Positions 1 through 2,228 of a stretch of 57,521 nucleotides of DNA are shown one piece after another; position 1 is the stretch's first letter, and each line of letters opens with the position of its first letter. The notes beneath the pieces were generated by a model. The model made no database searches, was not told the DNA's origin, and was given only the letters and a program-made list of their open reading frames with translations. Source of the stretch: Candidatus Aenigmatarchaeota archaeon (GTDB taxonomy: Archaea > Aenigmatarchaeota > Aenigmatarchaeia > JACPZZ01); NCBI GenBank assembly GCA_016202815.1, contig JACQNZ010000004.1, positions 1-57,521 on the forward strand. Direction: 5' to 3'. Position numbers and translations under genes: made by a program.

Positions 1-2
1 AC

Positions 3-545
3 GAGGCTCATGTTCACATCTGGCAGTGGACAGAGACAGGCTTGCGAGTCCCGAAAGGCCGCGACCCTCGCAAATATGAAACAAACGGCCAAGGTGAAAA
101 ATATTGGGTTAGGGAACTTTTAATTGGAAGTGATACGGTTGGAGAAATTCTTGTCCCAGAAGGAAACGGAAGAGTCGTTGTTGAATGGGACGAAGTTTCC
201 GGATTGCCGCGCGTTACGGAAGATATCGCTTTCCCGCACAAGCCTTACACAACGCATTTCTGGTTTAACGTGAATCCCGGCAAAGACGGGGTGTCAGGCT
301 ACCAGGATGTTGCTGTCGAGCGCAGGAGCGGCTGGCTTCACGATGTGGCCGAGTGGTGCTTGGACGTCGATGCGAGCTATGCGCGTTCGGATGCGGACTC
401 GGATGGCGGCTTCCGTCCCGTTCGGGGTTCGTTGGTGAAAATTGAAAAGACAATCACACAAATTAATCCGACCGATCCAAATGAGATGGAAAAGGATTAC
501 GGAAAATTGCCTCTTGCGGATTTCAGACAAAAATATAATCTATAA
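3..545 (+). CDS. DGR target (variable) protein, 5'-truncated by window edge
   Basis: The reading frame is open from the first bases of the window to a stop at 545, so the true N-terminus lies outside; 180 residues are visible. The C-terminal part holds a segment VERRSGW ... GFRPVRG that resembles the C-type-lectin/formylglycine-enzyme fold used by known DGR target proteins (paired Arg, Trp, then a GFR motif near the end). The DNA for that segment is the variable repeat matching the template downstream. Unlike many DGR targets, about 37 residues follow the variable segment. DGR targets are usually displayed ligand-binding proteins; that role is inferred. A TTG at 42 is in frame but is not the start, because the frame continues upstream. 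Confidence 0.8.
   Translation, partial: EAHVHIWQWTETGLRVPKGRDPRKYETNGQGEKYWVRELLIGSDTVGEILVPEGNGRVVVEWDEVSGLPRVTEDIAFPHKPYTTHFWFNVNPGKDGVSGYQDVAVERRSGWLHDVAEWCLDVDASYARSDADSDGGFRPVRGSLVKIEKTITQINPTDPNEMEKDYGKLPLADFRQKYNL
312..428 (+). repeat. DGR variable repeat (VR)
   Basis: This 117-base segment of the target gene aligns with the template repeat at 918-1127. Thirteen substitutions separate the two, and every one lies opposite an adenine in the template (seen: A to G, T or C). No C, G or T of the template core is altered before the final ggc/ggt codon. That is the signature of adenine-specific mutagenic retrohoming. The VR lacks four in-frame segments (30, 39, 21 and 3 bases) that the template has. 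It ends near a short G-rich stretch at 423-428 where an initiation-of-mutagenic-homing site would be expected. Confidence 0.85.
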
Positions 546-917
546 ATACCGCTTCTTTGCATATTTTTTATGATGTCTGTTAGATCTGTTCTGTTTGGGG
601 GGGGGAACAAAAATTCTGAAGCCTCTCAAAAATGTAAATTTCTTATCAGTTCTTCTTTAAAATCATCAAATACGATTTCTGGTGATTCGACTTTTCCATT
701 AGTTTACGGTCTTGGCCATCGCCGACTGCACATCATCAGAGCGGCCAAAACAATCTACAAATCAGCTTCGTGCGGTTGGCGGAACCCCGAACTACATGCC
801 TGTCCATAGACGAAGCTACGCTTTCCGCAAGCTGATGACATGAAATACAGCAACGATAGCGAGTAAGCAATGAAAGTTAAAGTTGCGGTGCGGGTTTGGT
901 GGACAGGCTACACGGCT
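546..917 (+). other. Gap between DGR target and template repeat
   Basis: I see no convincing gene here. A 79-codon open frame (570-809) has no family resemblance and is unlike an Avd accessory protein. The interval holds a run of nine G at 597-605 and partly complementary segments AGCTTCGT (about 763) and ACGAAGCT (about 811), with AAGCTGAT further on, so the RNA upstream of the template may fold. A short stretch near 735 (TCAGAGCGGCCAAAACA) resembles the sequence just after the template repeat (TCAGGGCGGCCAAGACA). In known DGRs the template RNA carries structured flanks needed for cDNA priming; that role here is inferred. Confidence 0.4.
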
Positions 918-1127
918 GCTGTCGAGCGCAGGAGCAACTGGCATCACGATGAGGATAGTTTTTGCAAAGCAAACGCTAGCATATACGAGAGGTGCTTGGA
1001 CGTCAATCTGCATAAGAACCATAAAAATTCTTTGCGGAGCGCAAATGCGAACTATGCGCGTTCGGATGCGAAATCTTCCAGCAAAGACGCAAACTCGAAT
1101 GACGGCTTCCGTCCAATAGTTCAGGGC
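918..1127 (+). repeat. DGR template repeat (TR)
   Basis: This 210-base repeat lies 18 bases before the reverse transcriptase start. It matches the VR at 312-428 except at adenines and at four insertions of 30, 39, 21 and 3 bases, each a whole number of codons. Weaker similarity (caggctac) continues about 15 bases upstream of the core. The inserts can fold: the first contains TTTGC-AAA-GCAAA, the second ends in TTTGCG-GAG-CGCAAA, and the third can pair TCTT with AAGA between GCG and CGC. The TR also lies in an open frame running into the RT gene, but it is expected to act as RNA, not as protein. Confidence 0.85.
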
Positions 1128-1145
1128 GGCCAAGACATATTAATA

Positions 1146-2228
1146 ATGAAATCTTACGGGAACTTATACGGTAAATTGTATTCGATGGAAAATCTCCAGA
1201 TTGCTTATCGGAAAGCCAAAAAAGGCAAAAGCAAGAAGTGGTATGTAAAAGAATTCGGGTTAGAGCTAGATAAAAACTTGTTGCAGTTACAAAAAGAACT
1301 GTTCACAACGACTTATGAACCCAAGCCGTTGAAGCAGTTCATAATCAGAGACCCAAAGACGCGTGTCATTTCAGCTTCCAATTTCCGCGACAGGGTTGTA
1401 CATCACGCCTTATGCAACATCATTGAACCGATTTTTGAGAAGATATTTATTTATGATTCGTACGCAAACAGGAAAAACAAAGGCACGCACGCGGCGTTAA
1501 AGAGATTCGACCAGTTCAAAAGAAAAGTTTCTCACAATGGAAAATTGCTTCCAAGCGCCAAAGACAATAACATGGTTTATGGCTATGTTTTGAAAGCTGA
1601 CATAAAGCATTATTTTGATTCTGTTGACCACGAGGTTATGATGCACATAATTAGCAAGAAAATCAGGGACGAAAAAGTGCTTTGGTTGACCGAGAAAATT
1701 CTCGATAATCATTACTGCAAGATAACTGGCAAAGGAATGCCCATTGGAAACCTAACAAGCCAGTTCTTTGCAAACGTATACCTGAACGAGCTGGATTATT
1801 TCATAAAACACGAATTAAAGGCAAAATATTACATCAGGTACGTTGACGACTTTGTGATATTGCACAAATCTAAAGAAACGCTTGAATTCTACAAAACGCA
1901 GATAAACGAATTTCTGAAGACTATAAATCTGGAATTGCATCCGCAGAAATCGAAAGTCATACCGTTGCATAAAGGTGTTAACCTGCTTGGGTTTATGGTC
2001 TTCTACAGGTACAAATTGCCCAAGAAAAATAACATCAGGCGAATTGAACACAAGATTAATAGTTTTATCAGGATGCACAGGGAAGGCGTCATCAAGGAAG
2101 AAATCCTGGAAAAGATCAACGGTTGGGAGGCTTATGCTATCCATGCCGATACGTTCAACATCAGAAGGCGAATGATGAAAAGATTAAGAAAATCAATGAG
2201 AAGTGCCCCATTGTTGCCTTTTATTTGA
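1146..2228 (+). CDS. DGR-type reverse transcriptase
   Basis: A 360-residue reverse transcriptase that would copy the template RNA with adenine-directed errors into target-gene cDNA. The catalytic YVDD box is at residues 232-235, with an upstream metal-binding Asp in KADIKHYFDSVDHE. Residues 200-206 read IGNLTSQ, the form typical of DGR reverse transcriptases, where group II intron and retroviral-type enzymes have QGxxxSP. There is no maturase or endonuclease domain, which fits a DGR. The ATG at 1146 was chosen because the frame upstream of it (to 870) is the template repeat itself. A hairpin terminator follows the gene. Confidence 0.92.
   Translation: MKSYGNLYGKLYSMENLQIAYRKAKKGKSKKWYVKEFGLELDKNLLQLQKELFTTTYEPKPLKQFIIRDPKTRVISASNFRDRVVHHALCNIIEPIFEKIFIYDSYANRKNKGTHAALKRFDQFKRKVSHNGKLLPSAKDNNMVYGYVLKADIKHYFDSVDHEVMMHIISKKIRDEKVLWLTEKILDNHYCKITGKGMPIGNLTSQFFANVYLNELDYFIKHELKAKYYIRYVDDFVILHKSKETLEFYKTQINEFLKTINLELHPQKSKVIPLHKGVNLLGFMVFYRYKLPKKNNIRRIEHKINSFIRMHREGVIKEEILEKINGWEAYAIHADTFNIRRRMMKRLRKSMRSAPLLPFI

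Follow-up and report, generated by a model that had tools for sequence, protein, structure and literature searches.

Guo et al. 2008 reportedly engineered a self-splicing td intron into the template repeat (TR) of the diversity-generating retroelement (DGR) of Bordetella phage BPP-1 and found it missing from the variable repeat (VR) after homing, a loss that is said to demonstrate an RNA intermediate. The DGRs described from DPANN archaea have the layout that is also found here, with the VR in a target gene, the TR just upstream of the reverse transcriptase (RT) and adenine-specific change, and inserts, gaps or deletions are not mentioned in the main text of that description (Paul et al. 2015, PMC4372165). 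Archaeal introns of the bulge-helix-bulge (BHB) type occur in tRNA, rRNA and the Cbf5 pre-mRNA and are removed by the tRNA-splicing endonuclease (PMC4090602; PMC2738675). In the BHB motif a helix of 4 bp has a 3-nt bulge on either side, with the splice sites inside the bulges, and tRNA introns measure 11–129 nt according to a review (PMC4090602). At the archaeal locus described here, the TR carries three large inserts that are very probably BHB micro-introns, the TR RNA being cut by the tRNA-splicing endonuclease, ligated and then reverse-transcribed.

The window analysed spans 57,521 bases from the start of contig C3, one of nine contigs in a draft genome of 0.95 Mb that is 91% complete, and the DGR lies at its start, in the order target gene with VR1, TR and RT (Table 1). 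The locus is a DGR in that its TR and VR differ almost only at TR adenines and a DGR-type RT lies beside the TR; this RT is intact, carries the MPIGNLTSQFFAN motif, can be aligned with other DPANN DGR RTs and was placed in the RT tree. The target gene gave no Pfam match over the cut-off. With the inserts removed, VR1 aligns to the TR without gaps, with changes at 13 of 26 adenines and at none of 85 other positions; every aligned core mismatch thus falls on a TR adenine, and VR1 is a clean, recent, adenine-only copy. A second target gene is present on contig C7 (G000:C7:56497-57225), and its VR2 (about C7:57085-57195) is missing precisely the three inserts that VR1 is missing and is changed at 18/26 adenines and 6/85 other positions. 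Equal length of TR and VR, a usual property of DGRs that is not treated here as defining, is attained once the inserts are removed, the TR otherwise being 90 nt longer. The VR paralogues on C1 and C2 have the length of the other short VRs; the C1 VR was discarded as a recent copy of the window TR, being too diverged (25 of 80 non-adenine positions changed). The C3 and C7 target genes share a nearly identical stretch (window 1–200 and L009:6796-6980), which may be the cause of the assembly break at the first base of the window. Downstream of the target gene stand nine or ten consecutive G (window 598–607), which are also present at the matching place in the congener G002 (L022/L039), and L041 has a comparable G run upstream of its TR.

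Table 1. Features of the DGR at the start of the window (window positions; introns in BHB-consistent placement)
Feature	Position	Strand	Description	Basis
Target gene	3–545	+	5′ end cut by contig start; VR1 in 3′ part	ORF list; paralogues on C7, C1, C2
Variable repeat VR1	311–421	+	same length as TR with introns removed	
RT-16 RNA	767–916	+	ends one base before TR; full-length model match	Rfam RF03019; 74.8 bits vs gathering score 50
Template repeat TR	917–1127	+	four predicted exons, three candidate introns	gapped TR/VR alignments
Predicted TR exons	917–954, 985–1005, 1045–1072, 1094–1127	+		
Candidate intron 1, 30 nt	955–984	+	ATGA GG^A [TAGTTTTTGCAAAGCAAACGCTA] GCAT AT^A	helix pairs 3/4
Candidate intron 2, 39 nt	1006–1044	+	ACGT CA^A [TCTGCATAAGAACCATAAAAATTCTTTGCGGA] GCGC AA^A	helix pairs 3/4
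Candidate intron 3, 21 nt	1073–1093	+	TGCG AA^A [TCTTCCAGCAAAGA] CGCA AA^C	helix pairs 4/4
DGR-type reverse transcriptase	1147–2228	+	motif MPIGNLTSQFFAN, YVDD	RVT_1 8.4e-23; alignment; tree

The TR/VR mismatch reported in the preliminary description is real as regards the 30-, 39- and 21-nt inserts, which are absent from both VRs of the genome. The fourth insert that it listed, of 3 nt, lies where homology runs out on the 3′ side and instead reflects a target-gene length that differs by one codon, as the relative G002 has no gap there (TR CCAATAGTCCGG, VR CCAGTGGTTCGG). Its hairpins likewise hold for insert 1 (TTTGC-AAA-GCAAA) and insert 3 (GCG..TCTT/AAGA..CGC), whereas for insert 2 the fold TCTGC..AAGAA/TTCTT..GCGGA is better than the proposed TTTGCG-GAG-CGCAAA. 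Differences of 3 or 6 nt between TR and VR, in either direction and in AAC-rich stretches, were also seen in other DPANN pairs (L042, L047, L050, L055, L058, L064, L073, L093); these are codon-sized length changes unrelated to BHB introns.

DGR loci were gathered by RT similarity from species genomes, viral contigs and the whole phylum, and each TR was aligned to its VR with scoring that made substitutions cheap at TR adenines alone, an insert being counted if at least 12 nt long in the TR. Such inserts are present in 18 of the 19 Aenigmatarchaeota DGRs whose TR and VR could be paired (phylum membership being as defined by the phylum-wide search, from which some public record titles differ), and elsewhere in two of 42 other archaeal MAG pairs (L046, L080), one of 13 bacterial pairs and none of 39 viral pairs. 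The archaeal inserts number 41 in 20 TRs, are 15–58 nt long and occur up to three within about 210 nt. As inserts stand at homologous sites in many independent MAGs, they are not the assembly artefacts that had initially been considered. Gaps in L118 and one of 89 nt in L079 were judged to be artefacts of the alignment and left out. In G002, which carries a related cassette, TR inserts of 30 and 42 nt stand where the window has inserts 2 and 3 but differ from these in sequence, and the VR of G002 is without inserts. In the sister-clade locus L233 (G107 contig C136), introns 1 and 3 are present, with a compensatory change in the inner stem of intron 1, and intron 2 is precisely absent from the TR, perhaps a natural presence/absence difference that arose by recombination with spliced cDNA. 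Mapped on the RT tree, the presence or absence of inserts has to change about four times, supported branches forcing three or more of these changes, and L080 falls among insert-free relatives; insert gain or loss has therefore recurred.

Strong evidence for BHB introns comes from the geometry of the junctions that the VRs define. At these junctions all four helix pairs together with an inner stem are found in 30/41 inserts and at least three of four pairs in 40/41, whereas equal-length placements elsewhere in the same TR reach the four-pair criterion at 0–7% of positions. In intron 3 of the window the full layout is TGCG AA^A TCTT(CCAGCA)AAGA CGCA AA^C. In 30 introns both cuts stand at the BHB spacing from the helix, 2 (or 3) nt, two values that can mostly not be told apart since a TR adenine matches any VR base; the two spacings are unequal in seven introns at most. 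Helices at homologous sites in several families differ in sequence and remain complementary, as in L033, which has CGTG/CACG where L040 has CACG/CGTG, and full pairing is found in 17 of 24 distinct helix types, where 20,000 reshuffles gave 2.2 on average and never more than 10. A BHB scan of the TR that makes no use of the VR, with two adenine rules learned from the same TR set, recovered 21 inserts exactly among its 24 hits in insert-bearing TRs and gave five hits in 90 insert-free TRs. The first intron base is A in 41/41 cases. As homologous introns are not independent, the product of the per-intron null fractions is an index only, and weight is placed on the counts, the covariation and the TR-only scan. 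The genome encodes both a splicing endonuclease (PF01974, 3.0e-27) and an RtcB ligase (PF01139, 1.5e-165). The preliminary description had raised excision of the inserts from the RNA by the tRNA-splicing endonuclease, together with a possible BHB motif at the insert edges; the junction geometry strongly supports such excision.

Several observations count against the BHB reading. One helix mismatch is present in 11 of the 41 introns, including introns 1 and 2 of the window, the first intron of L231 has almost no inner stem, and folding z-scores in the window are weak and unremarkable. Many tRNA genes of the genome seem to carry introns, half of the 20 tRNA matches spanning 100–161 nt (G000 loci L264, L266-L274); ARAGORN reported no intron-bearing tRNAs in this genome, and a strict BHB scan of the ten long Rfam tRNA matches gave one clear intron at the usual place, which also weighs against the reading.

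The main rival is skipping by the RT, in which the nascent cDNA would jump the base of a hairpin, aided by short direct repeats (e.g. GAA) at the insert edges. All inserts can form a hairpin and many junctions show an ambiguity or microhomology of 1–6 nt, as such jumping would have it, and in a Chloroflexi DGR (L100:11781-11950) a 57-nt TR insert that forms a long perfect hairpin is absent from the VR and lacks BHB geometry, so that another route to a TR-only hairpin does exist. The archaeal junctions are, however, asymmetric in the manner of BHB splicing, the exon keeping the 5′ helix strand and two bulge bases and losing the 3′ strand; neither this helix-and-bulge geometry nor the rarity of unequal helix-to-cut spacings is predicted by skipping. 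In addition, some junctions have almost no microhomology (the 33-nt insert of L041, the 39-nt insert of L046), and nothing alike is seen in viral and nearly all bacterial DGRs. Skipping is on these grounds improbable.

The lengths of the inserts bear on whether splicing would be obligatory. Multiples of three account for 33 of the 41 (naive binomial p about 8e-10), and the VR frame is poorer in stops than the other two frames (6/413 codons compared with 45/769, p about 2e-4), both p-values being optimistic in that introns related by descent are counted separately; length differences between homologous introns come mostly in steps of three. This excess is not predicted by obligatory splicing and counts against the BHB reading. 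Selection on the TR inserts to keep the target frame, as had been suggested from the window, agrees with these figures but not with the eight inserts that break the frame (17, 17, 22, 23, 23, 28, 32 and 58 nt), whose VRs are still in frame; since these eight are not multiples of three, their in-frame VRs require removal rather than tolerance. A TR–RT fusion ORF was rejected as the cause of frame keeping, as the TR reads in frame into the RT in only some of the intron-bearing loci checked (L039, L228 and the window, where the ATG at 870 falls inside the RT-16 RNA). The length excess and the stop depletion would both be accounted for by optional splicing, in which the RT would also copy TR RNA that keeps some or all of its introns, such template then having to stay readable in the VR, and three introns could give up to eight VR lengths. 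We regard this as a doubtful though not negligible possibility; among the VRs examined (113 pairs) none keeps an intron. Optional splicing, if it occurs, would add loop-length diversity to adenine diversity.

That the TR serves a longer VR, elsewhere or lost from the assembly, with the short VRs being old or decaying, had also been put forward, and the draft state of the genome and the six non-adenine differences between VR2 and the TR would allow it. It is nevertheless most unlikely, as an insert-bearing VR is found neither in the genome nor in any other pair, the VR is short in those target paralogues of the genus that were read, VR1 is a clean copy, and the same pattern is seen in nearly every DGR of the phylum; moreover, in-frame stops lie within or result from two of the inserts (L048, L051), and eight inserts break the frame. 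Equally remote is the addition of inserts to the TR after the last VR exchange, whether as mobile hairpins or through drift in a DGR that is dying out, for which the fast change of insert sequences between relatives speaks and against which stand the intact RT, the clean adenine-only pattern of VR1, the homologous sites with different but complementary helices in several families and the presence of inserts in nearly all DGRs of the phylum.

Removal by BHB splicing can be set in the context of the template RNA. Of 17 other intron-bearing loci, 14 have an RT-16 RNA directly before the TR, as the window does (L033, L043, L228-L232, L235, L238-L240, L249, L250, L253), which suggests that the template RNAs of DPANN DGRs, this window included, have RT-16 as their 5′ domain. 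In Rfam (RF03019) RT-16 is entered simply as an sRNA with a name taken from reverse transcriptases; the match in the window is full-length and directly 5′ of the TR. A similar block (GGGCTACACGCC...ATGAAATACA...) precedes the TR in many intron-free DPANN DGRs. In the proposed mechanism, a template RNA made up of the RT-16 5′ domain and the TR would be transcribed, the host tRNA-splicing endonuclease would cut each intron inside the two 3-nt bulges, and the exons would be joined, probably by RtcB, with predicted exon–exon joins in the spliced TR RNA of the window at CACGATGAGG/ACGAGAGG, GGACGTCA/ATGCGAAC and GATGCGAA/CTCGAATG. The DGR RT would copy the spliced TR with adenine-directed errors and the cDNA would replace the VR, which would then be the spliced template in genomic copy, free of introns and mutated at adenines. 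We infer from DNA copies that excision takes place on the RNA, by the tRNA-splicing endonuclease and before reverse transcription, the VR being indirect evidence of the ligated product.

Such a mechanism would join archaeal tRNA-type splicing to a diversity-generating retroelement, two systems not known to meet. In the open full-text literature, to which this search was confined, no paper was found that contains both ‘diversity-generating retroelement’ and ‘bulge-helix-bulge’, so that priority is not certain; for DGR and ‘splicing endonuclease’, the open full texts yielded one co-mention, in a paper whose title and abstract deal with protein family variability. The intron-free VRs would be natural evidence for an RNA intermediate in archaeal DGRs, and since VRs would record the splice junctions, they may provide a large, self-documenting set of BHB substrates beyond tRNA and rRNA. 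Intron-bearing DGRs could be missed by TR/VR finders that are averse to gaps, and whether splicing gates, protects or diversifies the template becomes testable.

The candidate introns resemble the known archaeal BHB introns in their helix of about 4 bp, two 3-nt bulges and canonical exon/intron strand order, in their lengths of tens of nucleotides (15–58 nt) and in the presence of the host endonuclease and RtcB. They differ in that the host transcript is a retroelement template RNA, most lengths are multiples of three, and as many as three introns are crowded into a single short repeat. The locus is also unlike most non-Aenigmatarchaeota DGRs compared here, which are without inserts. Finally, whereas the td intron of BPP-1 was an artificial group I reporter, the introns described here are natural, tiny and apparently of the protein-spliced BHB type.
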